A stretch of 64,000 nt of DNA, from assembly GCA_944358705.1 (NCBI GenBank), contig CALVRR010000006.1, positions 1-64,000 on the forward strand, written 5' to 3'. The position numbers and the translations under genes are program-made. Within the stretch, counting starts at the first letter, position 1, and the number at the start of each line of letters is the position of its first letter. This document shows positions 783-53,491 of the stretch, piece after piece. The notes beneath the pieces were generated by a model. The model was not told the DNA's origin, did no database searches, and saw only the letters and a program-made list of their open reading frames with translations. This DNA comes from an uncultured Bacilli bacterium. Lineage in GTDB: Bacteria; Bacillota_I; Bacilli_A; RF39; UBA660.

Positions 783-835
783 GTTATCACCTATTTAAAG
801 AATAGCATAAAAAATGGTAAAATTAAAGATATTTG

Positions 836-864: not shown

Positions 865-876
865 ATGTACAGAAAG

Positions 877-901: not shown

Positions 902-924
902 TTATTATTTCTAGGAGGTGAAGT

Positions 925-1176: not shown

Positions 1177-1177
1177 G

Positions 1178-2347: not shown

Positions 2348-2363
2348 TTTTTAAGGAGGGTTT

Positions 2364-2627: not shown

Positions 2628-2642
2628 TGGAGGTGAAGTGTA

Positions 2643-4781
2643 ATGATGAATTTAGAAGATTATGCTTTAGATGTTGGAAAAACAGTGGAAGAGATTATGT
2701 CTTTATGTGATAAGATTGGTATTAAATATGAAGATTCGTCTACGGTTTTGGATGATACCGATATTACTTTATTAGATAATGAACTTCAAGATCAAGAAGA
2801 TTATATTGAAGGTGATATTGAAGATTTAGAATCGAAATTGTACGAGGAAGAAGTTTATGATAAAGCAGAAGAATTAGCAATGAATACGAAGTTTGATTTG
2901 GATAATTCTACTTCTTTTGAAAAAGTAAAACCTAAGTCACAAAAGAAAAATGATAGTAAGAAGAATGATTTTTTCAAAGAGAGAAAAAAGATTTATAAAC
3001 ATCGTGAAAAGTTACAGAAGAATGAAGCAGCACAAGATGATAACATTATTTTATATAAAAATGGTATGACGGTATCTGAGCTTGCTGGTTTATTAAATGT
3101 AGCGGCTGTGGAATTAGTAAAGAAACTAATGGGACTTGGCGTTATGGCTAATATTAATCAGTCTGTTGATTTTGAAACTGCAGAAGTATTAGTGGCTGAT
3201 TATGGTAAAACTTTAAAGAAAGAGGAAACCGCTGATATTTCAAATTTTGAAAATTTTGAAATTGAGGATAAAGAAGAAGATTTAATTGAACGTCCTCCGG
3301 TTGTTACTATTATGGGACATGTTGATCATGGTAAAACTACTTTACTTGATACGATTCGTAAAAGTAATGTGGTAGGTGGAGAAGCTGGAGGTATTACACA
3401 AGCTATTGGTGCTTATTCTGTTACTTGTAATGGTAAGAAGATTACTTTTATTGATACTCCAGGTCATGCTGCTTTTACTGAAATGAGAGCACGTGGTGCT
3501 TCTATTACGGATATTGTTATTATTATTGTTGCAGCGGATGATGGTGTTATGCCTCAAACGAAAGAAGCTATTGATCATGCAAAAGCTGCTGGAGTTCCTA
3601 TTATTGTTGCTATTAACAAGATTGATAAACCAGAGGCTAATGTAGAACGTGTTATGACAGGGCTTGTAGAAAATGGACTTACTCCAGAAGAATGGGGTGG
3701 AGATGTTATTGTTAATAAAATTTCTGCAGCTACTGGAGAAGGAGTCGAAGAATTACTTGAAAATATTTTACTAGTTGCTGAAATGCAAGAATATAAAGCA
3801 AATCCATCACGTTATGCTAGTGGTGTTGTTATTGAATCTAAGAAAAATAGTAAAGTTGGTTCGGTTGCTACGTTACTTATTCAAAATGGTACACTTCGTT
3901 TAGGAGATCCTATTGTTGTTGGTACTATTTATGGTAAAGTTCGTACCTTAAAAAATGATTTAGGACAAAATATTGTTGAAGCAACTCCATCGATTCCTGT
4001 GGAAGTTACTGGACTTAGTGACGTTCCAAATGCCGGAGATAAGTTTATGGCTTTTGAATCTGAAAAACAAGCAAAACATATTGCAGATGAGAGAAGTTTG
4101 AGAGCTAGAGAGAAAGATACGAACTTTAGTGGTATGTCTTTAGAAGATTTATTTGGACGTATTCAAGAAGGAGTTAAAGAAATTAACGTTGTTTTAAAAG
4201 CAGACGTTAATGGTAGTTTGGAAGCTGTACGTGGAGCTTTGGATAAAATTGATGTTGAAGGTGTTCGTATTAATATTATTCGTGGTGCTGTTGGTGGTAT
4301 TACGGAAAGTGATGTGGTACTAGCTAGAGCAAGTTCTGCTATTATCATCGGATTTAATGTTCGTGCAAATTCTCAAGCACAAGATGATGCAAAAGAATAC
4401 GGGGTAGAAATTAGAACTTATGATATTATTTATAAAGTCGTAGAAGATATGGAAGATGCCATGAAAGGTATGCTTGATCCAGAATATGAAGAAAAAGTTA
4501 CTGGAAAACTTGAAATTCGTCAATTATTTAAATTCTCTAAAGTTGGACTTATTGCTGGATGTCATGTACTTAGTGGTGTTGTTCGTAACAATGAAAAAGC
4601 TCGTATCATCCGTGATGATGTTGTTGTTTATAATGGGGCAGTAAATACTTTACAACATGAAAAAGATCAAGTGAAAGAAGTTACTAAAGGGATGGATTGT
4701 GGTATCACTTTAGAAAACTGTCAAGATTATAAAGAGGGCGATATTATTGAAATTTACGATTTAGTAGAAGTGAAGAGATAG
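2643..4781 (+). CDS. infB: Translation initiation factor IF-2
   Basis: IF-2 of 712 residues, the GTPase that delivers initiator tRNA to the ribosome. A variable charged N-terminal region (about 1-130) and an IF2_N segment (TVSELAGLLNV, near 141-151) precede the G domain, which has G1 GHVDHGKT near residue 225, the G3 DTPGHAAF motif and G4 NKID. Domains II to IV follow, including the conserved LKADVNGSLEA start of domain III. Length is on the short side of normal. GGAGGTG at 2629-2635 suits the first of two adjacent ATG codons. Confidence 0.98.
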   Translation: MMNLEDYALDVGKTVEEIMSLCDKIGIKYEDSSTVLDDTDITLLDNELQDQEDYIEGDIEDLESKLYEEEVYDKAEELAMNTKFDLDNSTSFEKVKPKSQKKNDSKKNDFFKERKKIYKHREKLQKNEAAQDDNIILYKNGMTVSELAGLLNVAAVELVKKLMGLGVMANINQSVDFETAEVLVADYGKTLKKEETADISNFENFEIEDKEEDLIERPPVVTIMGHVDHGKTTLLDTIRKSNVVGGEAGGITQAIGAYSVTCNGKKITFIDTPGHAAFTEMRARGASITDIVIIIVAADDGVMPQTKEAIDHAKAAGVPIIVAINKIDKPEANVERVMTGLVENGLTPEEWGGDVIVNKISAATGEGVEELLENILLVAEMQEYKANPSRYASGVVIESKKNSKVGSVATLLIQNGTLRLGDPIVVGTIYGKVRTLKNDLGQNIVEATPSIPVEVTGLSDVPNAGDKFMAFESEKQAKHIADERSLRAREKDTNFSGMSLEDLFGRIQEGVKEINVVLKADVNGSLEAVRGALDKIDVEGVRINIIRGAVGGITESDVVLARASSAIIIGFNVRANSQAQDDAKEYGVEIRTYDIIYKVVEDMEDAMKGMLDPEYEEKVTGKLEIRQLFKFSKVGLIAGCHVLSGVVRNNEKARIIRDDVVVYNGAVNTLQHEKDQVKEVTKGMDCGITLENCQDYKEGDIIEIYDLVEVKR

Positions 4782-4783
4782 TT

Positions 4784-5203
4784 ATGGAAAGAAGACAATA
4801 TACTGCTTCTGCTTATACAATAGATTTTAAAAATCATTCTGTATTATTAACATATAATTCTAAATTAAAAAAGTGGTTGCAACCGGGTGGTCATATTCTA
4901 GATAGAGAACTAGAGATGCCATGGGATGCAGCGATTCGTGAAACAAAAGAGGAGACAGGTATAGATATTGAAATTATTGGTCCTATTTTATATGGAAAAT
5001 ATCAGCCTATTGCAGTTGAACATTATTCCAACTCTGTTGGTGATATGATTGATATTCAATATCTTGCTCAGCCACTTTCTACAGATATTTCAGGATTTAA
5101 TAATGTTTGTTGGCAAGATATTTTTACTATTGATTTTAATTCTGATATTGATGAAGAAATTAAGGAAAAAGTAAAAGAATTATATAAGATAAATACCAGA
5201 TAG
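4784..5203 (+). CDS. Nudix hydrolase
   Basis: Nudix-fold protein of 139 residues. The Nudix helix reads GGH...E...RETKEETGI (about 36-62), giving the REUXEEXGU metal-binding core; the stretch between the glycine and the first glutamate is about two residues longer than the GX5E consensus. Members hydrolyse nucleoside diphosphates linked to another moiety; the substrate cannot be told from sequence. It starts two bases after the infB stop and ends 12 bases before rbfA, so it sits inside the translation operon where Bacillus has ylxP. Confidence 0.9.
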   Translation: MERRQYTASAYTIDFKNHSVLLTYNSKLKKWLQPGGHILDRELEMPWDAAIRETKEETGIDIEIIGPILYGKYQPIAVEHYSNSVGDMIDIQYLAQPLSTDISGFNNVCWQDIFTIDFNSDIDEEIKEKVKELYKINTR

Positions 5204-5215
5204 GAGGAAACTATT

Positions 5216-5575
5216 ATGGCAAATGTTAAATTGGAAAGACTTAATCATTTAATACAACAAGAAATAAGCATTATCTTAATGGAAGAAGTCAGAGATGAAG
5301 ATTTAAAGTTTGTAACGATTACTGGTTGTGATACTAGTAGTGATTACAGCTATTGTAAAGTTTATTTTACAGTATTAGATGAAGAAAAGAGAGAGGCTAT
5401 TTTAGAAGCTTTAGATGGGGCAAGTTCTTTTATTAGAAGTAAACTTGCTGAACGTATTGATATTCGGCATACTCCAGAATTAAAATTCATTTATGATACT
5501 TCTATTGAATATGGTGAACACATCGAAAGAATTATTGATAAAATTCATGATGAAGATAAAGCAAAAGAGAATTAA
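5216..5575 (+). CDS. rbfA: 30S ribosome-binding factor RbfA
   Basis: RbfA of 119 residues, the cold-shock and 16S rRNA maturation factor. It has the KH-type fold signatures: LERLNHLIQQEISIIL at the N-terminus, the KVYFTVLD strand, and the C-terminal helix/strand HTPELKFIYD. AGGAGG precedes the ATG. It is the last gene of the infB operon here. The usual truB neighbour is absent; instead a convergent minus-strand gene overlaps its last four bases. Confidence 0.96.
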   Translation: MANVKLERLNHLIQQEISIILMEEVRDEDLKFVTITGCDTSSDYSYCKVYFTVLDEEKREAILEALDGASSFIRSKLAERIDIRHTPELKFIYDTSIEYGEHIERIIDKIHDEDKAKEN

Positions 5576-8500
5576 GATTTTTTCCTTAATTCTCTTTTTT
5601 TTATTTGATGGTTGTTTGGTACTAAAGATGATTTTGCACTCTCTAAACAAGCTTTTGTTAAATCTATTACTTCTTGTTCTTCTACATGGAATAATTCCGA
5701 GATACTTTTACTATCTAGTGGACAGTTGAAATAACCTAGTCTTAAGGCAAGCATTGCTTTTTGATTTATTGTACATTTGGATACATATGAGTTAAATATG
5801 GAGTTTTCAAGGTTTATTATTCCTTGTAGTATTTTTTCTTGATGATTGTATTCTCTTTTGCTTCTAGGAATATTTTGACTAGTTATTCTTTCTTGTATTT
5901 CTTTGATATCTTTTTCTTTTAGTTTTATACTATTTTGACTTCTATAATTTTCTTTAATTTTTCTGTCTTCTTCAAAAGAAGGCCATTTTTTTAATATTTT
6001 TTCTTTTACTTCTTTTCTTTGATCGATGATATCTAATGCTTTTTTCTTTAATCTAATAACTGTCGCTAAAGAAATATTCATTCTTGTTGCGATATTTTCT
6101 TGAGAAGAGTAAGTGGTATTTGGTGGAGTAATTTGATAAATTTGTTGTAAAATCGTTAACTCTCTTTCTGTGATGTCTTGCTTTGGTGTTTCTTGTGTTT
6201 GGTTCAAGACTTCTTCTTTTTTTCTTTCTGAAGATTTTTCATCTTCTAGAAATTCTGGATAAAGTTCTAATACGGCATTTTTAAATTCGATATCTTTTTC
6301 ACATCTTTTTCTTGTATCTTCGATGGCTCTTTTTAAGCCTTTTTTTTGTTTATAGGATGTTAATGGTAATAATTGTTGTAAGGTAAGATGATTGTCATGT
6401 TGTTCTTTTAAAATTTGTAATAAGTCTTTTCTTTGTTTTTGTATTATTGTTAGTTTTCTTTTCTTTTCTCTTTTTCTTTTCTTTTTTTCGAAAAATTCAG
6501 GGTAAATTTCTAAAACCATTCTTTTTACTTCGGGATTGTTTTTTGCTTTTCTTTTGATATTCCACATTATTTGATAAAGTGTTTTGTCACTACTATAGTC
6601 TGTTTCATCTACTAGTTCTTTTAGTGCTAGAGAATCTTTGTGGTGTTTTTTTAATACTTTTAATAATTCTTTTTGACTTTCATTTAGTAGTGGAGGTTCT
6701 TCTTTTTTCTTTGGTGGAGTTTCTTGTTGGGGTTTTTCTTTTTCCTCTAAAAATTGTGGATAAATAGTTAATATATAAGTTTTTGCTTTTTCATCCGAAT
6801 CGCATAATTCTCTTAATTTTTTTATTTTTTTTGAAAGACCAGAACTATGTTTATATCCTAATATTTTAGATAATTCTTCTTGTGTTAAGGTATGTTCGTG
6901 ATGTTTGTTTAAGGTTTTTAATATTTCTTTTTCTCTTTTACTTATTAGAGGCCTTTCTTTTGGTTGTTTCTTTTCTTTTTCTCTAGGGGTTTTTCTCTTT
7001 TCCTCTAAAAATTCTGGGTAGATTGCTAGGATATATTCTTTTGTTTTATCGCTTGAATTACATAACTCTTTTAATTTTTTTATATTATAGTACACACTCG
7101 TATTATGTTTATATCCTAATATTTTAGCTATTTCTTCTTTTGTTAAGGGATGTTCGTGATGTTCATTTAGTATTTTTAATAGTTCTTTTTGCTTTTTACT
7201 TATTAGAGGCTTTTTTGTTTGTTCTTTTTTCTTTTCTCTTTTTTCTAAAAAATGAGGGTAAATGGTTAAAACATATGCTTTTACCTTTTCATTGGAATTA
7301 CATAATTCTTTTAGGTCTTTTATCTTTCTTGAAAGACTGGAACTATGTTTATATCCTACGATTTTGGCTATTTCTTGTTGGGAGATAGGATGCTCGTGAT
7401 GTTCATTTAATGCTTTTAATATCGCTTCTTCTTTTTTACTTATTAGAGGTCTTTCTTTCGGTTGTTTCTTTTCTTTTTTCTTTGGTGTTTTTGGTTTTTC
7501 TTCGAAAAACTCTGGATAGATGGTTTCTATGTATTTTTTTATCTCTTCTTTTGCATTACCTAGTTCTTTTAATTTCTTTATTTTTTTAGAAATAGTTATT
7601 TCTGTTTTATATCCTAATATTTTTGCCATTTCTGCATAAGAAAGTGGTTTTTTATGATTTTTACTTAATAATTTTAATAATTCTTTTTGTTTTTGATTTA
7701 ATAAAGGAGCTTGTTTTTTTGATGAAGCTTTTTTTGCTCTTGTTCTTGTATCAAAAAAATGTGGATATAAATTCATTATTTTTTGTTTAGCTACTTCATT
7801 TGTTTCACTAACTATTTTAAGGGATTTTATTAAGTTACTTATACTTTGTTTATTTTTATAGCCCATGATGATTGCTAGTTCTTCTTGACGTAGTGGAGAA
7901 GAGTGATGTTCGTTTAATAATTTTAATAAAGTAATTTGTTTTGGGGTTAATAATGGTTTTTCGGTTTTTATCGGTTGTTCCTTTTTTTCTTGTCTAGAGG
8001 AGTTTTTGTTTAATTTTATCCCTAACGAGTGGGCTTTTATTTCTAACATTCTATTACTATCTGGGTATTTCTCTAAAATAATATTTAAATTATTCGAATC
8101 TGTTAATAAAGAAAAAGCGGTGACTAGTTTTTTTTCAGTTTCTTTTTCTCCTTGGTTTGTTATTTCACTAATTTCCTTTATATCTAAACAGATATCTTCT
8201 ATTTCACCAATATAATAACCGATTAGGAGAATGTCTTCTTCTGATAATGTTGTTTTTTCTTTGAAAAATAATTTTCTATCTTTTAATATTTTTTTATAGT
8301 TTGGATATAATCTTTTGACTTCGTCTTTTTGTTTTTGTAGTTCTAGTTTTTGTAATGCTTGATAAATTGCACCAGAGTTTGTATGCAGACGTTTTATTAT
8401 TTCTTCTTCAGATAAAAACTTATTATTTTCTTGGTGTAGGTAAAGGTGGAGAATCTTTTTTTCTTCTGATGTGAAACTTTCAGAAGGGATAAAGTATATT

Positions 8501-19801: not shown

Positions 19802-22800
19802 ATGGCAAATTTAGTAAAAAACTTTTTAACAGATTTTGAAGATATTAATGAGTATTATACTTATTTAGTAGATAAGACTAAAAATAAAGAATATGTTGGT
19901 ATAACTAATGAGTGGTTAATTGATAATTTTTATTTATTAGTAGAACATAAAACCAATATTATTCATGACAAAAAATATATTATGAAAGACTTAAAGAAAT
20001 GTAGTCGTGTTTTTTATTGTTTAAAAGATATTGTTGTTCGTAATAATTATAATATTAATTTTCGACTATTAGTGTCTGAGTTAAAAGAATATCAAAAACA
20101 GACTAAAGTGACATTTTCTTATCTTGAACTTGTATGTGTAAAAAACATATTATTATTCCTTTATACAAAAAGACTTTCTGATTTGTGTAGTGAGGAGTAT
20201 CGTAATTTAGTAAATAAAGAACGTGTTTCTAAAATTATTGAAAGTAGAGAAGAAAAAGAAATTGAACTTTCTAATTTTCTAGATGATGATTTTTCAGTTC
20301 AAGAACAGGCAAATTATTTGTTTGAGATAAATAATCAATTAAAAGAAATTGGTGCAAAAAGTAATCGATTGTTTAAAGAATTGAATGAATTATTAGAGAA
20401 AAAGAATGTTAGTTTAAAAGAAATAATTAATAATGAATATCAGAAGAATATTGATAATGATATTTTAATTTCTAATATCTTTGGTGATTTAAAAGAATTT
20501 TTTGAATTTACGGATGAAGATTTGTTTAAAAGAGTTAGTAAGACTGAAAAATTATTATTAGAAGATGAAGTATATGCGAAGATGACTGTTGAATCTAAAA
20601 GATTGTATCGTACTCAGTTGTTGAAGTTAGCTAAGAAACATCATAAGGATGAGCTTACGTATTTAGAAGAATTAGTTGCGAATACCAATGGTAGTGAATA
20701 TCATATTGGATTTCAGTTGTTCCCTAAAAAGAAAACTAGTCTTAGAGTTATTCTTTATATTTGTACTATTGTTTTTGCGACAGTAGGAATTAGTTTTGTT
20801 TTATCTAAGTATTTTATTGCTTGGCGATGGTTAGGTTTTCTTTTATTACTTATTCCAGTTAGTCAGTTGTTTGTACAAATATTTAATCAATTATTGATTC
20901 GATTTGTTCCTACAACTCCACTTCCAAAGTTGGACTATTCAAAAGGAATTCCAGAAGAAACCAAGACTATGGTTGTTATTCCTACGATTGTTTCTAGCAA
21001 AGAGAAAATTAAAACTATGTTTGATGTGTTGGAAACCTTTTATATTATTAATAAGACAGATAATTTATATTTTACCTTGTTAGGTGATGTAAAAGCTGGT
21101 AAGGAAGAGGTTTATGACTTTGATCAAGAATTAGCAGAGTATGGAGTGGAATATGCTTCGCAACAAAATAAAAAATATAAAAAAGATCTTTTCCATTTTC
21201 TTTATCGTAAACGTTTTTGGAATGAGCATGAAAATTGTTATTTAGGGTATGAAAGAAAGAGGGGAGCTTTACTTCAATTTAATCAACTTCTTCTTAAAAA
21301 GATGAGTAAAAAGGAGCAAGATTATTGGTATTTTGCTAATACCTTAGGAGATTTTTCAGAAGATATTCGTTATGTCATTACTTTGGATCAAGACAATCGT
21401 TTGGTATTAAATACAGCACTTAATTTGGTAGGGGCTATGGCGCATCCTTTGAATCGACCAGTGTTAAATAAAGAAGGAACGAAAGTTGTTAAAGGGTATG
21501 CTTTGATGCAACCTAGAGTAAGTTTAGATATTGAGGCAACGAATAAGAGTCTTTATAGTCAAATATTTGCTGGTATTGGTGGTTTTGATACTTATAGTGC
21601 TATTGTACCTAATGTATATCAAGATACCTTTGGTGAAGGTAGCTTTGTTGGGAAAGGTATTTATGATTTAAAAGTTTTTGATCAAGTATTGTCTAATGTC
21701 TTTCCTGATAATTTAATTTTAAGTCATGATTTGTTAGAAGGAAATTATTTACGATGTGGTTATGTTTGTGATATTGAATTGATTGATGATTTTCCATCTA
21801 AGTTTTTAACGGATACAACTAGACATCATAGATGGGCAAGAGGAGATGTACAAATTATAGGATGGTTATTACCTTTTGTTCGTAATCATGATGGACAAAA
21901 AGTAAAGAATCCTATTAATTTGTTAGGTAAATGGAAAATATTTGATAATATTGTTCGTATGTTTTTATATCCGACTTTATTACTTGTATTACTTTGTGCT
22001 ATTTTCTTTGGTCTTATTAGTCCATTATGGTGGATAGGATTAGTTATTTTAGAGATTGCCATTCCTATTTTATTCTTTTTGAAGAGTAAAGTTTATCATA
22101 GAGATGGAAAAAAGGAAAAAGCTACGGTTTATTATAAGAATTTATTGTTTGGTGGAAAAAGTTTATTACTTCGTTCTTATATCTTATTAGCGACACTTCC
22201 TTTTTATTCGAAACTTTATTTGGATGCTTTTTTCCGTACTTGTTATCGTATGTTAATTAGTCATAAGAATTTACTTAACTGGGTTACGGCAGAAGATGCA
22301 GAGAAAAATGCAAATTCTAGTTTTCGTAATTACCTTAGAAAATTTCGATTTCATTTAATATTTAGTTTTCTTTTATTAGTGATTGGACTTGTAACATTTA
22401 ATATTTATGCAAGTTTACTTGCTGTTATCTTCTTTACTGCACCTTTTGTATTGTATTATGTTAGTCTTGATTTAAATCCACAGAAAAAAGAATTAAAAGA
22501 AAAAGAAATTGAAGAAGTTCGAGAAGTTGCTTATCGTACTTGGTGTTATTTTAAGGAAAATTTAAAAGAAGAATATCATTACTTAATTCCAGATAACTAT
22601 CAGGAAAATAGAGAACAGAAATTAGATTTAAGAGCATCTCCTACGGGTATTGGTTTTTCTTTACTTAGTGTTGTTAGTGCTGTTGAATTGGAGTTTCTTT
22701 CTTACGAAGATTCCAAAGAATTAATCTCTCATATTTTAGATAGTGTTGATTCTTTAGAAAAATGGCATGGTCATTTATATAATTGGTATGATATTAAAAG

Positions 22801-25800
22801 CATGAAAGTAATGCATCCTAGTTTTGTATCTACGATTGATTCTGGTAACTTTATTGCCTCTTTAATTGTTGTACGGGAATTTTTACATAATCATGAGGAA
22901 GATACGTTAATAAAACTTTGTGATAAATTAATTCGTAATGCTAACTTTAAAAAGTTATATACGAAGCGAGATGTCTTTAGTATTGGTTATGATGAATTAG
23001 AGGGAAGACTTTCTATTTATAATTATAATAAGTTTGCTAGTGAATCTCGTCTTACTAGCTACTTGGCTATTTGTTTAGGGGATGCTCCAAGTAAACATTG
23101 GTTTTGCTTAGATAAATCTCTTACTACTTATAAAGGTAGAAAAGGTCTTATTTCTTGGTCTGGAACTTCTTTTGAATATTTCATGCCACTTTTGTTTATG
23201 AAAAATTATCCAAATACTTTGTTGGATGAAAGTTATCATTTTGCTAAGTTCTGTCAAGAAGAATATATTGAAAGTGTATCTCGTTCGTTACCATGGGGAA
23301 TTAGTGAATCTGCTTATAATGAACTTGATAATTCATTGAACTATAAATATCATGCTTTTTCTACTCCTTATTTAAAAGCAAAAGAAGATAAAGAAAATAG
23401 GATTGTACTTTCTCCATATTCTTCTTTAATGGCAATTTCTATGTTCCCAAGAGAGGTTTATGATAATTTTGAAAAGTTTAAAAAATTAGATATGCTTGGT
23501 GAATATGGATTTTACGAGTCTTATGATTATGATAATAAGGGTGTTGTAAAAGCATTCTTTGCCCATCATCAAGGAATGAGTTTGGTTGGTCTTACGAATT
23601 ATTTAAAATCTGGTGCGATTCAAAATTATTTTCATCAGAATGTTAATATTAAAACTTTTGATATTTTATTGAAAGAAAAAGTACAAGTACGTACTAGTAT
23701 CGATATGAAGATGGCACGATATAAGAAGTATGATTATCATAAAGAAACTATTGAAAATGATATACGAACCTTTAATTATATTTCTTATTTACCAGAGGTT
23801 AGTGTTTTATCTAATAAAAAGTATTGTTTACTTATGAATGATCGTGGAGATAGTTTTTCTAGATATCGTACTTTACAATTGAATCGTTATCGTAAAGTAA
23901 CAGAGCAAGATTATGGAATTTTCTTATATATTAAAGATTTAGATACTAATTATATTTGGTCAAATACATATGCACCTATCAATAAAAAGCCAGATAAATA
24001 TGAAGTGGTATTTGCTTCTGATAAAATTAAGTATTTACGTACGGATGGAAAAATTACTACGAAAACAGAAATTGTTGTTACTAAAAATCATCATGCGGAA
24101 ATACGTAAGATTACGTTTAAGAATGAAAGTGATGATGTTAAAAGATTAGAGCTTACTAGTTATACGGAACCTATTTTGTCTGAGAATATGGATGATGTTT
24201 CTCATCGTGTATTTAATAGTATGTTTTTAACTAGTATGTATGATAGTAATAGTAATTCATTAATTGTTCGAAGAAAAAGTAGGAATGATTCTAATATTAA
24301 TAGTTATATGTTACATCGATTATTCTTAGAAGAACCAATGAATGAATATAGTTATGAAACCGAGAGAAAGAATTTCTTAGGTCGTAATCAAACGATGCAA
24401 GATCCAAAGGCTCTTCATACTACACTTAGTAATACGGCTGGTACAAATTTAGATCCTGTACTAAGTATTCGAAATACCATTGAAGTATTACCAAATAGTT
24501 CTACTACCGTTTATTTAATTACTGGTTTTGGTAGAAGTATGGAACAAATTCAGGATATTATTTCTTCTTACCATGATGAGAATTCTATTGATAAAGCATT
24601 TAAAGTTTCTACACTTATGAATGTTATTAATACGAAGAATATGAATATTACTGGTAGTGATATGAGAATCTTTAATATTATGCTTAATTATTTGTATCAA
24701 ACGACTAAGCTTTCTGTTACGGAAGAGAGAATGGATTTACTTAGACGTAATGCTTTAGGGCAATCTGGTCTTTGGAAGTTTGGTGTTAGTGGGGATCGTC
24801 CAATTATTTTGGTAGAAATTTCAGATATTGCTGATTTGACTTTTGTTTATGATATATTAAAAGCCTTTGAGTACTATAAAAATAATTCTATTTTTGTAGA
24901 TGTTATTATTGTTAATAATGAGTCTAGTCAGTATGCTAAAATTATTAAAAAAGAAATTGATGATGAACTATATCGTATGTATACGTTAAATAGTTTTTAT
25001 CATATTCCTGGTACGGTTACTGTTGTTGATGGAAGTAATTTAACTCGGGAAGAGAGAAGTTTACTTCATATGGTTGCTAGACTTGCTTTTGTGATTTCTG
25101 AGCATCATTCTTTACAAGAAGAGGTAGAAGAGTTACAGAAGAAAAATAAAGTTAGTGATTATGAAAAAGCTGCTGTTGAAAGTCATGGGGAAGTTATTTC
25201 GAAAGAGAAACTTACTTTTGATAATGGTTATGGTGGATTTAAAAATCATGGTAGTGAATATGTTATTTATAATCCAAATACACCAGCTCCTTGGAGTAAT
25301 ATCATAGCTAATAAGAATTTTGGTACTATTGTTACAAATAATGGTTGTGGTTATACTTACGCTTATAATTCTGGAGAATTTAAAATTACTTCTTGGACGA
25401 ATGATATGGTAGCAAATGATAAGTCAGAAGGATTTAAGTTTAACGGTCGAATCTTTGATCCAATGAAATGTACTCATGGATTTGGTTATAGTATTTTAGA
25501 AAGTGAAAACGATGAACTTAAGAAAGAAATTACGGAGTTTGTTGCGAAAGAAGATACGATTAAGTTTTACTTGGTTAAACTTACGAATAAGTTAGAGAAA
25601 GCCGTAGATATCGATATTGATTTTTGGATTAATCCTGTCTTTGGTAATTTTGAAGAAAAGACCGCAAGACATATCTTAACTGAGTTTATGGGACAAGATA
25701 ATTATTTAAAATTACGTAATGTTTATAGTGCTATTTATAGTGATGTCTGTGTCTTTATGTCTACGGATTTGAAGATTGATTCTACTGTTAATGATAAGAT

Positions 25801-27463
25801 TTTAGTTAAGAGTATTCATACGAAACTACATTTGGATTCTCTAGAGAGTGCCAGTTGTGTCTTTGTTCTTGGTAGTAGTATGGATAGTAACGCTATTGGT
25901 GATATGCTAAAATATGCAGATGTTAAAGCTGCAAAAGCAGAGTTAAAAGCAGTAAAAGATTACTGGAAGAAGACGTTGGGTGTTGTTCAAGTTCATAGTT
26001 CAGATTCTAGCTTTAACTATATGGTAAATGGTTGGTATTTATATCAAGCACTTGCTTCTCGTATTTTAGCAAGAGCTGGTTTTTATCAAGTTAGTGGTGC
26101 TTTTGGATATCGTGATCAATTGCAAGATTCTATGAATGTGGCCTTGGTTCGTCCAGATCAAGCTAGACGTCAGATATTAATTAATGCAGCTCATCAATTT
26201 GAACAGGGAGATGTTTTACATTGGTGGCATGAAAAAAATCATTTTGGACTTCGTAGTCGTTATAAAGATGATTATTTATGGTTAGTTTATGCGACGGCAA
26301 GATATCTTGAAATTACGAAAGATTATTCAATTTTAGAAGAGAAAGTTCCTTATGTTCTTGGTCCAGAGTTAAGTAACTATGAACATGAAAAAGGTATGGT
26401 ATTTACTTATTCTGAGGAAAAGGCTTCTTTATTAGAACACTGTTTGAAATCTTTACGTCTTTCTATGGTTTCTTTAGGAAGTCATGGATTACCACTTATG
26501 GGTGGTGGAGATTGGAACGACGGAATGAATAAAGTCGGTATTAAAGGTAAAGGGGAAAGTATTTGGTTAGGTTTCTTCTTATATCAAGTTATTGAAGAGT
26601 TTATGTCATTTATGAAAGTTTATGACAAGAAGTTTAAATTAAAAGAGTTTAAAGAATTTAATGAAAAATTAAAAGATAATTTAAATAAGAAAGCTTGGGA
26701 TGGAGAATATTATTTAAGAGCTTATTTCGATAATGGAGATAAGTTGGGTAGTCATGAAAATAAGGAATGTAAGATTGATTTAATTTCACAAAGTTTTTCT
26801 ATTTTAAGTGGAGTTGCTTCGAAAGAACGAATACAAAAAGTAATTACTTCGGTAGAAGAAAATTTAGTGGATGATAAAAATAAAATTGTGAAATTACTTA
26901 CTCCTCCTTTTGAAAAGTCATTGAATAATCCTGGATATATTATGAATTATCCAAAAGGTCTTCGTGAAAATGGTGGTCAATATACCCATGCTACTTCTTG
27001 GTATATTATGGCACTTATTCAAACTGGTTATTATGATCGTGCTTATCGTTATTATCAGATGATTAATCCTGTTAATCGTAGTCTAAATTCTACAGGAGTG
27101 GAAAAATATGTAGTAGAACCTTATGTTGTTGCTGCTGATATTTATTCTAATGAACGTTATCCTGGTAGAGGAGGATGGACTTGGTATACCGGTACGGCAG
27201 GTTGGTATTATTATGTTGGTGTTAGTGAGATTTTAGGACTTAAGAAACATGGAGAAGAATTAACAATTGAACCTAATATACCAATTGCCTGGGATTCTTT
27301 CCAGTTGGATTATACTTATATGGATACGGTTTATCATATTGAAGTTATAAAAGCAAAAAAAGAAAGTGTTACTTTAGACCGTAAGAAGTGTAGTAATGGT
27401 ATTATTCCACTTGTAAATGATAAGAAGGAACATGATGTTGTTGTGCATTTTATTGCTGGATAA
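19802..27463 (+). CDS. Cyclic beta-1,2-glucan synthase family protein (GT84 plus GH94)
   Basis: Giant membrane enzyme of 2,553 residues. About 300 charged N-terminal residues lead to two helices (near 310-365). A GT84 glycosyltransferase domain follows with DQD at 529-531, and RHHRWARGD at 674-682 as the QxxRW-like motif. More helices lie near 715-900. A glycoamylase-like domain (PF10091 type) covers about 930-1300, with FAHHQGMSLVGL. The C-terminal third is GH94 phosphorylase-like, with QVSGAFGYRDQLQD, HWWHEKNHFGLRSRY, GGGDWND at 2234-2240 and GGWTWYTGTAGW. NdvB/ChvB proteins of this layout build beta-1,2-glucan and cyclise it with the GH94 domain. An extended -10 (TGT then TATAAT at 19774-19779) precedes it. 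Product identity is inferred. Confidence 0.9.
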   Translation: MANLVKNFLTDFEDINEYYTYLVDKTKNKEYVGITNEWLIDNFYLLVEHKTNIIHDKKYIMKDLKKCSRVFYCLKDIVVRNNYNINFRLLVSELKEYQKQTKVTFSYLELVCVKNILLFLYTKRLSDLCSEEYRNLVNKERVSKIIESREEKEIELSNFLDDDFSVQEQANYLFEINNQLKEIGAKSNRLFKELNELLEKKNVSLKEIINNEYQKNIDNDILISNIFGDLKEFFEFTDEDLFKRVSKTEKLLLEDEVYAKMTVESKRLYRTQLLKLAKKHHKDELTYLEELVANTNGSEYHIGFQLFPKKKTSLRVILYICTIVFATVGISFVLSKYFIAWRWLGFLLLLIPVSQLFVQIFNQLLIRFVPTTPLPKLDYSKGIPEETKTMVVIPTIVSSKEKIKTMFDVLETFYIINKTDNLYFTLLGDVKAGKEEVYDFDQELAEYGVEYASQQNKKYKKDLFHFLYRKRFWNEHENCYLGYERKRGALLQFNQLLLKKMSKKEQDYWYFANTLGDFSEDIRYVITLDQDNRLVLNTALNLVGAMAHPLNRPVLNKEGTKVVKGYALMQPRVSLDIEATNKSLYSQIFAGIGGFDTYSAIVPNVYQDTFGEGSFVGKGIYDLKVFDQVLSNVFPDNLILSHDLLEGNYLRCGYVCDIELIDDFPSKFLTDTTRHHRWARGDVQIIGWLLPFVRNHDGQKVKNPINLLGKWKIFDNIVRMFLYPTLLLVLLCAIFFGLISPLWWIGLVILEIAIPILFFLKSKVYHRDGKKEKATVYYKNLLFGGKSLLLRSYILLATLPFYSKLYLDAFFRTCYRMLISHKNLLNWVTAEDAEKNANSSFRNYLRKFRFHLIFSFLLLVIGLVTFNIYASLLAVIFFTAPFVLYYVSLDLNPQKKELKEKEIEEVREVAYRTWCYFKENLKEEYHYLIPDNYQENREQKLDLRASPTGIGFSLLSVVSAVELEFLSYEDSKELISHILDSVDSLEKWHGHLYNWYDIKSMKVMHPSFVSTIDSGNFIASLIVVREFLHNHEEDTLIKLCDKLIRNANFKKLYTKRDVFSIGYDELEGRLSIYNYNKFASESRLTSYLAICLGDAPSKHWFCLDKSLTTYKGRKGLISWSGTSFEYFMPLLFMKNYPNTLLDESYHFAKFCQEEYIESVSRSLPWGISESAYNELDNSLNYKYHAFSTPYLKAKEDKENRIVLSPYSSLMAISMFPREVYDNFEKFKKLDMLGEYGFYESYDYDNKGVVKAFFAHHQGMSLVGLTNYLKSGAIQNYFHQNVNIKTFDILLKEKVQVRTSIDMKMARYKKYDYHKETIENDIRTFNYISYLPEVSVLSNKKYCLLMNDRGDSFSRYRTLQLNRYRKVTEQDYGIFLYIKDLDTNYIWSNTYAPINKKPDKYEVVFASDKIKYLRTDGKITTKTEIVVTKNHHAEIRKITFKNESDDVKRLELTSYTEPILSENMDDVSHRVFNSMFLTSMYDSNSNSLIVRRKSRNDSNINSYMLHRLFLEEPMNEYSYETERKNFLGRNQTMQDPKALHTTLSNTAGTNLDPVLSIRNTIEVLPNSSTTVYLITGFGRSMEQIQDIISSYHDENSIDKAFKVSTLMNVINTKNMNITGSDMRIFNIMLNYLYQTTKLSVTEERMDLLRRNALGQSGLWKFGVSGDRPIILVEISDIADLTFVYDILKAFEYYKNNSIFVDVIIVNNESSQYAKIIKKEIDDELYRMYTLNSFYHIPGTVTVVDGSNLTREERSLLHMVARLAFVISEHHSLQEEVEELQKKNKVSDYEKAAVESHGEVISKEKLTFDNGYGGFKNHGSEYVIYNPNTPAPWSNIIANKNFGTIVTNNGCGYTYAYNSGEFKITSWTNDMVANDKSEGFKFNGRIFDPMKCTHGFGYSILESENDELKKEITEFVAKEDTIKFYLVKLTNKLEKAVDIDIDFWINPVFGNFEEKTARHILTEFMGQDNYLKLRNVYSAIYSDVCVFMSTDLKIDSTVNDKILVKSIHTKLHLDSLESASCVFVLGSSMDSNAIGDMLKYADVKAAKAELKAVKDYWKKTLGVVQVHSSDSSFNYMVNGWYLYQALASRILARAGFYQVSGAFGYRDQLQDSMNVALVRPDQARRQILINAAHQFEQGDVLHWWHEKNHFGLRSRYKDDYLWLVYATARYLEITKDYSILEEKVPYVLGPELSNYEHEKGMVFTYSEEKASLLEHCLKSLRLSMVSLGSHGLPLMGGGDWNDGMNKVGIKGKGESIWLGFFLYQVIEEFMSFMKVYDKKFKLKEFKEFNEKLKDNLNKKAWDGEYYLRAYFDNGDKLGSHENKECKIDLISQSFSILSGVASKERIQKVITSVEENLVDDKNKIVKLLTPPFEKSLNNPGYIMNYPKGLRENGGQYTHATSWYIMALIQTGYYDRAYRYYQMINPVNRSLNSTGVEKYVVEPYVVAADIYSNERYPGRGGWTWYTGTAGWYYYVGVSEILGLKKHGEELTIEPNIPIAWDSFQLDYTYMDTVYHIEVIKAKKESVTLDRKKCSNGIIPLVNDKKEHDVVVHFIAG

Positions 27464-35760: not shown

Positions 35761-35813
35761 CTTTCTTTTCCTTAAACTTTATATTATAATTATAACAAGG
35801 AGAGATGAATTTA

Positions 35814-36359
35814 ATGGATAATGATATTATCAAATTAACAAAAGAAAGTATGGAAAATACTCTTAAAAATTTAGAAAAAAGATTTTCTACTGTGCGTGCA
35901 GGTAGAGCCAATCCTAGTAGTTTGGATGGTGTTGTTGCGGAATATTATGGAAGTATGACACCTTTGAAACAACTAGCAACTATTTCTGTTCCAGAAGCTA
36001 CTCAATTATTGATTAAACCGTTTGATAGAAGTTGTCTAGGGGCTATTGAAAAAGCGATTTTAGCTGCTAATTTAGGTTATACTCCAAATAATGATGGAGA
36101 AACTATTCGTATTGTTATTCCTCCATTGACGGAAGAAAGACGTAAGGAGCTTACGAAACAAGTAAAGTCTATTGCTGAAGATGCAAAAGTTTCTGTTCGT
36201 AATAATCGACATGAAGCTTTGGAAATGGTTGAAGCAGAAGAGTTTCCAGAGGATATTGAGAAATCTATGGAAAAAGAAATTCAAGAATTAGTAAATTTCT
36301 ATAATAAAAAAATTGATGAAATGTTAAAGGAAAAAGAATCTGAATTGATGACTATTTAG
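35814..36359 (+). CDS. frr: Ribosome recycling factor
   Basis: RRF of 181 residues. The N-terminal helix TLKNLEKRFSTVRAGRANPS, the PEATQLLIKPFD segment, GETIRIVIPPLTEERRKEL and the C-terminal helix are typical. It splits post-termination ribosomes with EF-G. AAGGAGAG at 35798-35805 overlaps an upstream in-frame ATG at 35805, so the ATG at 35814 is the better start. Confidence 0.97.
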   Translation: MDNDIIKLTKESMENTLKNLEKRFSTVRAGRANPSSLDGVVAEYYGSMTPLKQLATISVPEATQLLIKPFDRSCLGAIEKAILAANLGYTPNNDGETIRIVIPPLTEERRKELTKQVKSIAEDAKVSVRNNRHEALEMVEAEEFPEDIEKSMEKEIQELVNFYNKKIDEMLKEKESELMTI

Positions 36360-36472: not shown

Positions 36473-37027
36473 GTGAGAGCAAAGAAAAAAAATAGAGTAA
36501 TTATTGTATTGGCAGTTATTGTTGCTTTTATGGCGGTTGGTTATGCTATATTGCAACAAGAACTTACTATTAATGGTACCGGTAATATCGATACTAAATG
36601 GAATGTAGAAATTACAAATATCGAAAGTAGTTTCCTAGAAGGAGCAAAAAATGCAACGGATGAAGATGGAACAGAAATTCTTCCAACGTTTGAAGCAACC
36701 ACGGCAACTTTTAATGCAAGTTTACCAGTTCCTGGATCTGAAGCTGATTATACAATCACAGTTACTAATAAGGGTAACATTCCTGCAAAATTAGTAGAAT
36801 TGCCAACGATGGATACAGTTAATGGACAAGATCCAACTCAGATTTTATATGATGTATTCTTTACTGATGAAGAAAAATATGTATTGCAACCAGATGAGTC
36901 AGTGCAAATAACAGTTGCTGTTAGTTGGGATCCAGAAGATGATGCTGGAGTTCCAGCTCCTGTTAGTAAACAAGCGACAATTACTCTAAATTATCAACAA
37001 GCAGCAGATACTGGCGTAAGTAGTTAG
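36473..37027 (+). CDS. TasA/CalY-like exported surface or fibre subunit
   Basis: Protein of 184 residues starting with a short basic segment and one hydrophobic helix (VIIVLAVIVAFMAVGYAI), then a beta-rich acidic domain with TATFNASLPVPGSEADYTITVTNKG-type strands that resembles SipW-dependent TasA/CalY proteins. There is no lipobox or sortase motif. GTG at 36473 has AGGAGG eight to nine bases upstream; TTG at 36467 is too close to it. A signal peptidase of the SipW/ER type is the next gene, which supports the reading. Polymerisation into fibres is an inference. Confidence 0.7.
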   Translation: MRAKKKNRVIIVLAVIVAFMAVGYAILQQELTINGTGNIDTKWNVEITNIESSFLEGAKNATDEDGTEILPTFEATTATFNASLPVPGSEADYTITVTNKGNIPAKLVELPTMDTVNGQDPTQILYDVFFTDEEKYVLQPDESVQITVAVSWDPEDDAGVPAPVSKQATITLNYQQAADTGVSS

Positions 37028-37031
37028 AACA

Positions 37032-37064
37032 AAGGGAGTAATTGCTCCCTTCTTTTTCTTTTTC
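37032..37064 (+). terminator. Partial terminator between fibre subunit and signal peptidase
   Basis: Stem AAGGGAG/CTCCCTT (37032-37038 with 37045-37051), six-base loop, T-rich tail. The stem contains the only Shine-Dalgarno near the following gene, and a TTG lies in the loop. It probably lets more subunit than peptidase be made. Confidence 0.7.
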
Positions 37065-37065
37065 T

Positions 37066-38223
37066 ATGAATTTAAAATATAGTAGTTATTTTGTTTTCAT
37101 TGTTTTACTTATTATTCGTCTAGCTTGTTTTTTCTTTGATTTTTCTATTCCTATTTTAGATTTGTTGCTTTTTGGTAGTACGCTTTTGATTTTTCTTTTG
37201 TTTTTTTCGAAAAAAGAATTAATTCGTAATTATCATAAAAGTTTAACGAAAACAGTTTTAATTATTACCATTAGTTATTTTATTTTATATTATTTTCTAG
37301 GTGTTGTTATAGGGTTTACTTACAATGTCTATGATACTAGTATCTTGGGAATTCTTTCCAATACTTTTTTCTTAATTCTTCCTTTATTATTTCGAGAAGA
37401 AATTAGAAAAAAATTTGTTTTTTTACATAAAAATAAAATAGCTTGTGTTTTTATTACTATTGTTTTTATTGTATATGAGTTAATTGGTTCTACTTTTTTT
37501 GATTTTCAGAATAACCAAGAATTTTTTTCTAGTTTTTCTACTATTTTTTTGCCTATTGTGATAGAGAATATTTTACTTACTTATTTGGCTTTTGTGGGTA
37601 TTCGAAGTACTGTTTATGCTTATTTTATTCCTAAGCTTATTTCTAGGTATTATATTCCCGTTGTGGTTGATTTCGATTGGTTTTATCAATTGTTATTACA
37701 ATTAGGACTTACTGTAGTTATTTATTCTTTTTTATCGAATGAGTATTTATGGCAAGTAAAGCGAATATATAGTAAGACAACAGATAAAAAGAATTCTTTC
37801 TTATTTGCTACTATTTGTTTTGTTATTTTGATTTTTGGTCTTTTTGTGGCTGGTTGTTTTAAGTATCAGCCAGTAGCTGTACTTACTTATAGTATGGATC
37901 CTACTTTTACTAGAGGGGATGCCGTTGTAATAAAGAAATTAAATAGTAAGGAGAAAGAAAAATTAAAGAAAGGAGATATCATAGAATATCGATATGATCA
38001 AACTGTGGTAATACATCGTATTGTTGATTCCTATATGGTAGATGAGGAGAGAGTCTTTGTACTTAAAGGAGATAATAATGAAAGTGAAGATCCTAAAGTA
38101 GTTCATTATGATCAAATTATTGGTAAAGTATCTTTTTCTATTCCTAAAATAGGATATCCTAGTGTTTGGTTAAGTGAATTTTTGTATCCAGAGAAAGAAG
38201 CGGAAGTAGAAGTGGGAAGGTGA
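37066..38223 (+). CDS. SipW-like (ER-type) signal peptidase I with multi-helix N-terminal domain
   Basis: Protein of 385 residues from the ATG at 37066. The first 260 residues hold about eight hydrophobic helices. The S26 catalytic domain follows: YSMDPT supplies the nucleophile serine, and VVIHRIV carries His where bacterial type I peptidases have Lys, so it is the ER/SipW/archaeal type; LKGDNN is the last conserved box. It should mature the neighbouring exported proteins. The TTG at 37042 is an alternative start, three bases after GGGAG, whereas the ATG at 37066 lacks a clear ribosome site. Confidence 0.85.
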   Translation: MNLKYSSYFVFIVLLIIRLACFFFDFSIPILDLLLFGSTLLIFLLFFSKKELIRNYHKSLTKTVLIITISYFILYYFLGVVIGFTYNVYDTSILGILSNTFFLILPLLFREEIRKKFVFLHKNKIACVFITIVFIVYELIGSTFFDFQNNQEFFSSFSTIFLPIVIENILLTYLAFVGIRSTVYAYFIPKLISRYYIPVVVDFDWFYQLLLQLGLTVVIYSFLSNEYLWQVKRIYSKTTDKKNSFLFATICFVILIFGLFVAGCFKYQPVAVLTYSMDPTFTRGDAVVIKKLNSKEKEKLKKGDIIEYRYDQTVVIHRIVDSYMVDEERVFVLKGDNNESEDPKVVHYDQIIGKVSFSIPKIGYPSVWLSEFLYPEKEAEVEVGR

Positions 38224-38227
38224 TGAT

Positions 38228-39271
38228 ATGGTAAAGCGAATCGCTAAAAAGTTTTCCTTAGGAAAATTAGCTTTTTTAACTATTTTTCTAACGATAATTT
38301 TTTTGCTTGTTTTGTTTTATTCTCATATTTTAAATCCTACTTCTATTAAGAAAACTACTTTTTCTAGTTATCGAAATAATATTAATTATCAAGTTTTTTT
38401 AAGAAATAATAATTTTATTTCTAAACCATCTCTTGGTATGAATCAGGCCTATATTGCTTCTATGGTTGATTCTATTCATGTTAGTTTTGGACAAACAGCT
38501 ACTTTTCAGAAGATGACTTCTTTTCATTATGATTATACTATTTATGCTAAGCTTTCGGCTGTTTATCCTACTGAAAATGGGGAAGAAGAAATTTGGAGTC
38601 AAGTTTATCCTTTGAAAGTTCAAGATACAAAATCAGTTCGTGAAAAGATGCTTTCTATTACTGATCAGGTTTCTATTTCTTATTGGGATTATCAAGCGAT
38701 TGTTAATAATTTTAAAAATACGTATCATTTGAAAGTGGATGCTACGTTAGATATTATTATGGATGTTCATTATGAATATCAAAACCAAGAGGCAAAGTCT
38801 AGTAGTTTATTACTTTCTATTCCAATGAATCAAGAAGTGTTTAAAATTACTACGGATTATAAAAAAGAAGATTCTGTTGTTCAAACGGAAGAAGTTTCTA
38901 ATATGACTATGCCAGCTTTTGTTGTTTTGTTTTTCTTAGTGGTTATTGGATTAAGTGATATTTTTGCTTGTACTTTACTTTTTGTTAAGCTACTTCAATT
39001 ATATTCTATTACTGAATATGAGCGGATGAAGCAGAAGATAAAGAAAGATTATGGCTCTATTATTGTGGATGTTGATAACGCTATTGATTTTTCTAACTTT
39101 ACTATCTTTGAGATTAAGACTATCGAGGAACTTGTAGATTTGGAAGAAGAACTTCGAATACCAATATTATTTTATGAAAAGAAAAAGGCTAGAATTTGTT
39201 ATTTTGTAATTATAAAAGATCATTATATGTATCGATTTACTTTAAGAGATATGGAACAGGAGATTATTTAA
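38228..39271 (+). CDS. DUF5305-like membrane protein
   Basis: Protein of 347 residues: an N-terminal helix (about 13-34), a long extracytoplasmic beta-rich region that includes TTFSSYRNNINYQVFLRNN and WDYQAIVNNF, a second helix near 225-250, and a cytoplasmic end. This layout fits the DUF5305 family, which is often encoded beside SipW-type signal peptidases. GGAAGGTGAT precedes the ATG, four bases after the peptidase stop. A role in assembly or secretion of the surface proteins is inferred from position. Confidence 0.7.
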   Translation: MVKRIAKKFSLGKLAFLTIFLTIIFLLVLFYSHILNPTSIKKTTFSSYRNNINYQVFLRNNNFISKPSLGMNQAYIASMVDSIHVSFGQTATFQKMTSFHYDYTIYAKLSAVYPTENGEEEIWSQVYPLKVQDTKSVREKMLSITDQVSISYWDYQAIVNNFKNTYHLKVDATLDIIMDVHYEYQNQEAKSSSLLLSIPMNQEVFKITTDYKKEDSVVQTEEVSNMTMPAFVVLFFLVVIGLSDIFACTLLFVKLLQLYSITEYERMKQKIKKDYGSIIVDVDNAIDFSNFTIFEIKTIEELVDLEEELRIPILFYEKKKARICYFVIIKDHYMYRFTLRDMEQEII

Positions 39272-39287
39272 TTAGAGGGTGGTTATT

Positions 39288-40121
39288 ATGAGAAGAAGAA
39301 GACAAAGAAGAAAATTATTTATTTTCCTTTTTGTTCTTTCTTCTTTTCTTTTTTTGACCTTTTCTTCTGCTTATGCTATTTTAAATCGTGATGTTGTGGT
39401 TCATGGGAACGCTAGTCTTGTTATTCAAAATAGTAGTGGTGGTAATTTTATTGAAGGGGTTGTGGATGAAGATGATGGACTGGTTGAGAATGGAGATGGA
39501 TCTTCGGATTTTGTTGGAGATAGTGGAACTACGGTAAATAATTTTATTCAAATACTGGGGGATGATTATCTTTGGAGGATTTTATCGATTGATGTAGATG
39601 GTAACTTAAAAATTATTCGTAATCGTGATGAAAGTTTAAGTATGCCTTTTATAAGTTCTGGAGGAAATGCTCGTGATTGGGCAAATACGTTAATATTACA
39701 AAATTTAAAATCTTGGTATCAAGAAAATTTGAGTAGTTATTCCGATATTATTATTCAAAATCCAGAGTGGTTACTTACGGATGCAGCAAAGCCTGGTACT
39801 GTTGTTAATGTTTTAGGTACTTATACCGATAGTCCTATTGGTCTTATTCGTAATGATGAGATTGTAAATAGTTCTTCTACTGGTGCTAGTGGTCAAAGAG
39901 TTTCTTCGTGGTTAAATGATGGTTATATTTGGACTATGACTTATGTTAAGAAAGGTAATAAAACGGATCGTGCTTGGCGAGTAAATGGTGATAAGTTTAT
40001 GGATTCTGCCGCAACTAATGCTGGTAGTACTGTTGCCCGACCAGTTATATATTTAAAGTCTAGTGTTATGTTTTCTTCTGGTACTGGTACAGAGTCTGAT
40101 CCTTTTGTTGTAAAGTATTAA
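39288..40121 (+). CDS. Exported surface protein with a SipW-type signal
   Basis: Protein of 277 residues. A very basic start (MRRRRQRRK) and a hydrophobic helix end in SSAYAILNRDVVVHGNASL, which parallels GYAILQQELTINGTGNI in the subunit at 36473. The mature part has a Gly/Asp linker, a WRILSIDVDGNLKIIR segment and an end ARPVIYLKSSVMFSSGTGTE of the type seen in many exported proteins of gut Firmicutes. No anchor motif. The ATG at 39288 follows GAGGGTGG; upstream GTG at 39279 is less likely. It closes the four-gene locus. Confidence 0.65.
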   Translation: MRRRRQRRKLFIFLFVLSSFLFLTFSSAYAILNRDVVVHGNASLVIQNSSGGNFIEGVVDEDDGLVENGDGSSDFVGDSGTTVNNFIQILGDDYLWRILSIDVDGNLKIIRNRDESLSMPFISSGGNARDWANTLILQNLKSWYQENLSSYSDIIIQNPEWLLTDAAKPGTVVNVLGTYTDSPIGLIRNDEIVNSSSTGASGQRVSSWLNDGYIWTMTYVKKGNKTDRAWRVNGDKFMDSAATNAGSTVARPVIYLKSSVMFSSGTGTESDPFVVKY

Positions 40122-40128
40122 AAAATAT

Positions 40129-40156
40129 TTGTTTTTTAATACTATTATGTTATAAT
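40129..40156 (+). promoter_or_regulatory. Promoter of the T-box/pheST operon
   Basis: TATAAT at 40151-40156 with TTGTTT at 40129-40134 (16-base spacer) as a weak -35. Confidence 0.65.
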
Positions 40157-40165
40157 AAGCGTATC

Positions 40166-40376
40166 GATGTTGATTAAGGAGTAGTAGTAAATGATGTCTT
40201 TTTAGAGAGTCTGTGGTTGGTGGAAACAGATAAGAATAATTTATGAATTCGCCTTAGGAGTCCCTATAACAAAATTATAGGCGTTAATCGCGTTAAGATT
40301 AAGAGGTAGTTAAATAACTATAAATTAAGGTGGTACCGCGTTTTTATACGCCCTTAAGTTTATAGTTATTTTTTTT
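40166..40376 (+). promoter_or_regulatory. Phe T-box riboswitch
   Basis: The T-box sequence AAGGTGGTACCGCG at 40327-40340 is exact. A terminator stem AACTATAAATTAAGG/CCTTAAGTTTATAGTT (40316-40330 with 40352-40367) and a run of eight T follow. In stem I, GAATTCGCC contains TTC as the likely specifier codon, for Phe. The T-box senses uncharged tRNA-Phe and permits readthrough into the downstream genes ending with pheS and pheT. Confidence 0.93.
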
Positions 40377-52978: not shown

Positions 52979-53491
52979 ATGGAAGAGATAGAAAAGAATA
53001 AAAAGAAGAATTATTTTCGTGAACTTTTACCTTATTTTATTATTATCCTTGTAGTAATTTTTATTAAGGTTTTTATTGTTTCTCCTATTCGTGTGAATGG
53101 GGAGTCTATGGATTCTACTTTGCATGATGGAGATATTATGTTATTAGATGAGGTTAGTTATCGATTTAGTGATATTCAGCGCTTTGATATTGTTGTTATC
53201 CACCGTGAAGATGAATATCTTATTAAACGAGTTATTGGTCTGCCTGGAGAAAAAATTAAATATGTCGATGGAAAACTTTATGTTAATGGTAAATATGTAA
53301 AAGAAGATTTTAAACATAAAAAAACAAATGATTTTTTTGCAATAATTGATGAGGAAAATTATTTTGTTATGGGAGATAATCGTACTAATTCTACGGATAG
53401 TAGAAGTTTCGGTACTGTTTCTCGAGATCAGATTCTTGGTAAAACGAGTTTAACAATTTTTCCGTTTTCTAGATTTGGAAATAAAAAATAG
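52979..53491 (+). CDS. lepB: Signal peptidase I
   Basis: Type I signal peptidase of 170 residues, bacterial Ser/Lys type: one N-terminal helix (about 16-34), GESMDSTL with Ser43, LIKRVIGLPG with Lys83, and MGDNRTNSTDSR. This is distinct from the His-type peptidase at 37066-38223. The general signal peptidase of the cell is the likely role. GGTG lies before the ATG. Confidence 0.95.
   Translation: MEEIEKNKKKNYFRELLPYFIIILVVIFIKVFIVSPIRVNGESMDSTLHDGDIMLLDEVSYRFSDIQRFDIVVIHREDEYLIKRVIGLPGEKIKYVDGKLYVNGKYVKEDFKHKKTNDFFAIIDEENYFVMGDNRTNSTDSRSFGTVSRDQILGKTSLTIFPFSRFGNKK

Follow-up and report, generated by a model that had tools for sequence, protein, structure and literature searches.

The 64,000-nucleotide stretch analysed here (the window; contig CALVRR010000006.1 of an uncultured Bacilli bacterium) contains, between 36473 and 40121, four open reading frames on one strand, which encode a putative fibre subunit, a signal peptidase of the endoplasmic reticulum (ER) type, a DUF5305 protein and a second exported protein, here called protein 4. 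We propose, with a probability of about 0.62, that this locus specifies a thin donor-strand surface fibre of the TasA/AbpX type, in which the DUF5305 protein is the anchor and protein 4 is a nucleating, adhesin-like end cap. All four frames lie where an earlier note on this DNA had placed them, and on the same strand. The features on which the proposal is built are the following.

36473 to 37027, plus strand: putative fibre subunit, 184 amino acids (AbpX profile match, AlphaFold model, Foldseek list)
37032 to 37062, plus strand: terminator-like hairpin AAGGGAGTAATTGCTCCCTT with a T tract, between the subunit and peptidase genes
37066 to 38223, plus strand: ER-type signal peptidase, 385 amino acids (TIGR02228, SEC11C match, invariant residues, hydropathy)
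38228 to 39271, plus strand: DUF5305 protein, 347 amino acids (PF17231, 60.3 bits; cut-off 29)
39288 to 40121, plus strand: protein 4, putative head (end-cap) protein, 277 amino acids (segment test, profile-profile link of the head)
39530 to 40157, plus strand: head-domain block (DNA identity between the window and genome G005)

The subunit, the peptidase and DUF5305

The subunit gene starts with GTG at 36473, with a good ribosome-binding site, and its product carries a SipW-type signal peptide ending in ...AVGYA, with a cut predicted after residue 25. Beyond this cut lies a donor-strand-like segment, ILQQELTINGTGNI, followed by a beta-sandwich. A profile of 18 subunit sequences matched AbpX, the archaeal bundling-pilus-like subunit of Pyrodictium abyssi, with an E-value of 3.7e-7, whereas the next unrelated match was at 0.0079. 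AbpX is the closest solved sequence relative, and sequence homology links the subunit to the donor-strand bundling pilins (AbpA/AbpX). The AlphaFold model is a beta-sandwich (pLDDT 83), and donor-strand pilins are numerous among its Foldseek matches, which include AbpA (probability 0.98), TasA and chaperone-usher pilins; the TasA fibre 8aur was a weak match (E 0.19, probability 0.51). VIA-align superimposed AbpA on residues 27-178 of the model with Z 6.0 and a root-mean-square deviation of 7.4 over 140 aligned residues. Because no fold match is significant alone, we take the AbpX sequence match as the main evidence on the subunit. A membrane-anchored relative of the subunit is encoded on another contig of the same genome (L155, contig C14, 7697-8272), adjoining mraW, ftsL and penicillin-binding protein genes, and the subunit profile detects such a paralogue beside division genes in the majority of the genomes in the genus. 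Having neither the Y-A cleavage site nor the donor-strand segment, this relative was excluded from the count of fibre subunits.

The peptidase gene is assigned the ATG at 37066, a less likely start being the TTG at 37042 inside the hairpin. Its product scored 87.3 bits against TIGR02228 (sigpep_I_arch; cut-off 51.85), and the best solved relatives of its catalytic part are human SEC11C and SEC11A (1.7e-23), compared with about 1e-2 for bacterial LepB. Ser276, His317-Arg318, KGD at 334-336 and D342 are invariant across 27 long peptidase relatives, and Ser276, His317 and Asp336 correspond to the Ser-His-Asp arrangement of the S26B (Sec11/SipW) peptidases instead of Ser-Lys, in agreement with the His-type assignment made earlier. 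Against the SipW equivalog NF046067, the protein scored 65.8 bits, under the curated cut-off of 190. Hydropathy averaged over the alignment gives eight transmembrane segments N-terminal to the usual S26 anchor helix (247-265). Alternate loops of this part are positively charged, as expected for the outward-facing catalytic domain that we predict. A CPBP-type reading of the N-terminal part was dropped for want of Pfam support, and because no Pfam model covers that region, the earlier description of an unusual eight-helix part is upheld.

The earlier note had also argued that this peptidase must be dedicated to the locus, given that the Ser/Lys peptidase LepB is encoded elsewhere in the window. 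LepB is present, at 52979-53491, but the argument is too weak because two further His-type peptidases, each accompanied by exported proteins of its own, are encoded on contigs C8 and C12 of the host genome. Dedication is still supported by the gene neighbourhoods and by the all-or-none presence described below. The C12 locus (L036, taken from position 37000 of that contig; 132-6849), in which a second His-type peptidase stands with exported SipW-like proteins, also encodes an unexpected AAA+-like membrane protein with a GISGTGKTS motif and a DUF2357 protein. A gene set like that of L036 comes after the DUF5305 operon in genome G020 (L027), where a small S26-like protein seems to be without catalytic residues.

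The DUF5305 protein, which passes the curated PF17231 cut-off as its earlier description would have it, consists of a transmembrane segment (11-31), an immunoglobulin (Ig)-like ectodomain (39-224), a second transmembrane segment (230-260) and a small cytosolic domain (263-340). In the AlphaFold model (pLDDT 86), two membrane helices flank the ectodomain. DUF5305 gave no credible match to PDB sequences and none in a search of plasmids, and the literature search found no paper on it. The fold neighbours of its model (RbmA, transglutaminase, arrestin-like proteins and TRAP-alpha) were taken to reflect a common Ig-like arrangement and did not serve as functional guides.

Linkage was counted in two sets of loci, one from a search started with the peptidase (15 long-peptidase loci) and the other from a search started with DUF5305 (22 loci). 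In the first set, a DUF5305 gene adjoins the peptidase gene in 13 of the 15 loci and SipW-type subunit genes are close by in all 15; in the second, the long peptidase is immediately upstream in 14 of the 22, and one of the other eight lies at a contig end. DUF5305 is present in 22 of 296 sampled genomes of the class, 17 of these being in the window's own family, and the named relatives matched with the DUF5305 alignment are metagenome-assembled genomes of uncultured Bacilli. The neighbourhood comparison that had been suggested for this locus thus revealed that subunit, long peptidase and DUF5305 are strongly linked in many genera, far beyond chance. Seven genomes of the genus have the complete operon, located either at the frr-pheS site or on a short contig; in another five, frr and pheS are present and the operon is absent. 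Those seven genomes are also the ones with DUF5305 and the full-length peptidase (a version elsewhere in G007 is partial and different). This presence is all-or-none, and the two behave as one unit. In G008 (contig C1; L147, 4009-4740), the operon has been lost between frr and pheS, and a head-domain frame without a signal peptide is left as a natural deletion remnant. In two more distant loci, those of G107 and G224, DUF5305 is accompanied by an S26 peptidase that is extended at its C-terminus. The G107 locus (L087) stands on a haloarchaeal-looking contig (C49) and encodes twin-arginine-like exported proteins, an S26 peptidase and DUF5305; the genome is filed under Bacilli, and the contig is probably a contaminant of that bin.

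The hairpin behind the subunit gene is the sole terminator-like site between 36300 and 40450, shuffled sequences averaging 1.3. Each of the seven full operons in the genus has a strong hairpin with a T tract at this place, 3′ of the stop codon of the subunit gene, though the stem sequences differ, and several distant loci carry one as well. In Clostridium perfringens, bsaA is followed by a terminator with read-through (PMC7395162), and by this likeness the hairpin should yield abundant subunit mRNA plus some read-through. The view that the four genes form one operon needs qualification in this respect: they lie on the same strand, but the conserved hairpin splits off the subunit gene.

Protein 4 as a probable exchangeable head

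Protein 4, present as the second exported protein that had been noticed earlier, has a SipW-type signal (...SSAYA), a donor-strand-like segment (ILNRDVVVHGNASL), a linker and a head of the DUF6273 superfamily. After the [FY]-[AS] cleavage motif, the subunits show a common pattern like ALSQTLTINGTATI. When the other exported proteins of the loci were scored with the subunit pattern, 13 of 17 reached a shuffle p below 0.001. For the window's protein 4 the shuffle p was 0.0007 and the background p 0.0011, and the signal was stronger in most orthologues. In neighbouring SipW-type systems, four exported proteins that were scored are without the pattern (p 0.02-0.17). With residues 4-16 alone, the signal was kept for most proteins and was weaker for the window's protein 4 (p 0.005). 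An N-terminus resembling the donor strand of the subunits is a TapA-like property, since the N-terminus of TapA resembles the TasA donor strand (PMC9674648).

No Pfam family, DUF6273 (PF19789) included, matched the head of the window protein; profile-profile comparison linked it to DUF6273-bearing relatives (99.1%, E 1.5e-18), a link at the superfamily level only. Protein 4 had no match among PDB sequences up to E 5 and none in a search of phages, and the Pfam family Lcl_C, which reached only 0.6 in two of seven members, was rejected. The fourth slot holds 270-residue heads in the window's genus and, elsewhere, proteins with fn3 (802 residues) or Listeria-Bacteroides repeats (1998 residues). 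In G007, a single chain of 422 residues joins signal, strand, sandwich and DUF6273 head. The reading of protein 4 that we prefer is an exchangeable head bearing the donor-strand-like segment of the subunits.

Two further observations concern such proteins. The 802-residue protein with the fn3 domain (L033, 7162-9570; G023 contig C9) contains, by eye, a Hint/intein-like stretch (CLIEGTKIMLADGTYKNIEDI), and Pfam reported no such domain there. In G016 (contig C18; L115, 3885-5933), two protein-4-type head domains are part of a type IV pilin-like protein (N_methyl), so the head type is common to two unrelated fibre types.

The proposed fibre and its alternatives

Computation shows the signal and peptidase motifs, the gene linkage, a conserved terminator-like hairpin, a segment common to most of the exported proteins, a head block that is nearly identical in G005, and the predicted folds; from these we infer cleavage, polymerisation, anchoring, capping and adhesion. 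The subunit would be exported by Sec via its SipW-type signal peptide, and the linked Sec11-like peptidase would cut after the Y-A motif, freeing the N-terminal segment ILQQELTINGT.... This segment may then lie in a groove of the following subunit's beta-sandwich, in the manner of TasA and the bundling pili of archaea, and groove filling of this kind would allow the fibre to grow without a sortase or an usher. The terminator 3′ of the subunit gene would keep subunit mRNA above that of the assembly genes. Its topology (two transmembrane helices and an Ig-like ectodomain) and linkage suggest that the DUF5305 protein is a membrane-bound anchor or assembly partner. Protein 4, having the segment but no sandwich, could give a strand and not take one; it may be a TapA-like end cap that nucleates the fibre and displays the DUF6273-type head.

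Several results weigh against this proposal. The TasA/CalY (camelysin) profile PF12389 matched neither the window subunit nor anything in the whole genome, and only one of 18 subunit relatives matched it, at 0.0036; in the subunit profile search, TasA chains appeared only near 0.4. The best Foldseek E-value for the subunit model was 6.5e-3, no match being significant alone, and the Z of 6.0 for AbpA ties with unrelated Ig-like folds. The fold neighbours of DUF5305 are generic. Seven of the 22 loci in the DUF5305-started set have no adjacent long peptidase, and a contig end is not the cause. Finally, the fourth-slot proteins of L100 and L109 fail the segment test as run; they look shifted by one residue. 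The earlier designation of the subunit as TasA/CalY-like must accordingly be narrowed to AbpX/TasA-type, with a model that resembles donor-strand pilins but a sequence outside the curated family. By the tested profile the fibre system is not of the TasA/CalY family, yet it probably works like TasA. The notion of a surface-filament or biofilm system fares similarly: the linkage, the AbpX/TasA-type subunit and the all-or-none presence give good support to a fibre locus that includes a linked peptidase of the ER type, but biofilm remains a guess.

One alternative, possible but unlikely, is that the fibre is a non-adhesive component of a biofilm matrix, like TasA or BsaA, with protein 4 a mere TapA-like starter whose head is irrelevant. 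The closest worked-out relatives, TasA and BsaA, do form matrix fibres (PMC9674648, PMC7395162). However, the head is a large, conserved domain, interchangeable among loci and apparently exchanged between species, which is unlike a passive starter, and the same head type is found on the type IV pilin of a relative. A more far-reaching form of the adhesive-fibre proposal, which we consider unlikely, is that these loci represent a third class of adhesive pilus, free of sortase and usher, in Gram-positive-type bacteria. Any head protein with the shared donor-strand tag would then be cut by the multi-TM Sec11-like peptidase, which would form an assembly platform with DUF5305, and be plugged onto a TasA/AbpX-type fibre, the heads being swappable between species and loci.

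It is rather improbable that the locus is an export unit without any fibre, handling separate surface or secreted proteins that have a signal-peptide type and a peptidase in common and whose shared N-terminus is recognised by the peptidase or DUF5305 instead of serving as a donor strand. The weak fold matches of the subunit, the fact that part of the shared segment adjoins the cleavage site, and the presence of several dissimilar exported proteins in some loci would all fit such a unit. But residues 4-16 retain the signal in most proteins, and the exported proteins of neighbouring SipW-type systems do not have it; moreover, the subunit is homologous to the filament subunit AbpX, and its gene has its own terminator, as expected of a bulk component.

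Compared with the DNA of G005, which belongs to a different species in the genus, the window reaches 91-98% identity in the head block, about 65% elsewhere in the operon and 84-86% in the flanking housekeeping genes. The contrast between 91-98% and about 65% points to a recent exchange, and the head block was probably exchanged with G005. A caveat against this is that both G005 contigs carrying the block end near it. That the match is a binning or assembly artefact, an objection to the exchange step only, is improbable: one of these contigs, C73, has just 3,871 bases, the other, C28, ends just upstream of the block, and contamination of the two bins is 5-7.5%, but both contigs also bear DNA of their own diverged lineage (peptidase 58% identical, pheST 86%), and the block identity is 91-98%, not 100%.

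Relation to known systems and genome context

The locus resembles tapA-sipW-tasA of Bacillus subtilis in its exported sandwich subunit, its linked His-type peptidase and its helper with a donor-strand-like N-terminus (PMC9674648). It differs in that the subunit falls outside the camelysin/TasA profile, the peptidase is longer by about eight helices, DUF5305 comes as an additional partner and the helper carries a DUF6273-type head. TasA, ABP and ABPx are listed as donor-strand-exchanged fibres (PMC11952670), and the subunit sequence is akin to the archaeal bundling pili of Pyrobaculum calidifontis (AbpA) and P. abyssi (AbpX), although the window system is bacterial. With sipW-bsaABCRSD of C. 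perfringens it shares a peptidase accompanying a matrix-fibre subunit and a terminator after the subunit gene, whereas that system has a different gene order, its own two-component system and no reported DUF5305-type protein (PMC7395162). Chaperone-usher pili (FimA/FimH, PapG) have a similar incomplete-sandwich fold and a tip made of a head and a fibre-joining part, a build that the 422-residue G007 protein resembles; unlike them, the window locus has no chaperone or usher gene, and the head of protein 4 would join by a donated strand, not by an accepting sandwich. The haloarchaeal-looking L087 likewise combines exported proteins with a His-type peptidase and DUF5305, but there the peptidase extension is C-terminal.

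Throughout a large family of uncultured Bacilli, DUF5305 consistently accompanies an ER-type peptidase and donor-strand-like subunits, and its pairing with peptidase and exported proteins is also seen on at least one haloarchaeal-looking contig. With this locus, the range of a known kind of fibre probably comes to include a large bacterial family that is unstudied. If the proposal is true, DUF5305 would gain a role as a fibre anchor or assembly partner, a tip-head principle would be added to what TasA-type fibres offer, and the heads that are swapped would become candidates for what these bacteria bind.

The left neighbour of the locus is frr (35805-36359). On the right, the locus is bounded by a leader that stands outside the fibre system and belongs to the next unit, made up of a small gene, a HAD-type gene and pheST:

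40161 to 40358, plus strand: T-box leader (RF00230, 129 bits; gathering 93)

The host genome assembly comprises 1.70 Mb in 63 contigs, and an open reading frame for 2553 amino acids at 19802-27463 exceeds every other gene in the window by a wide margin.

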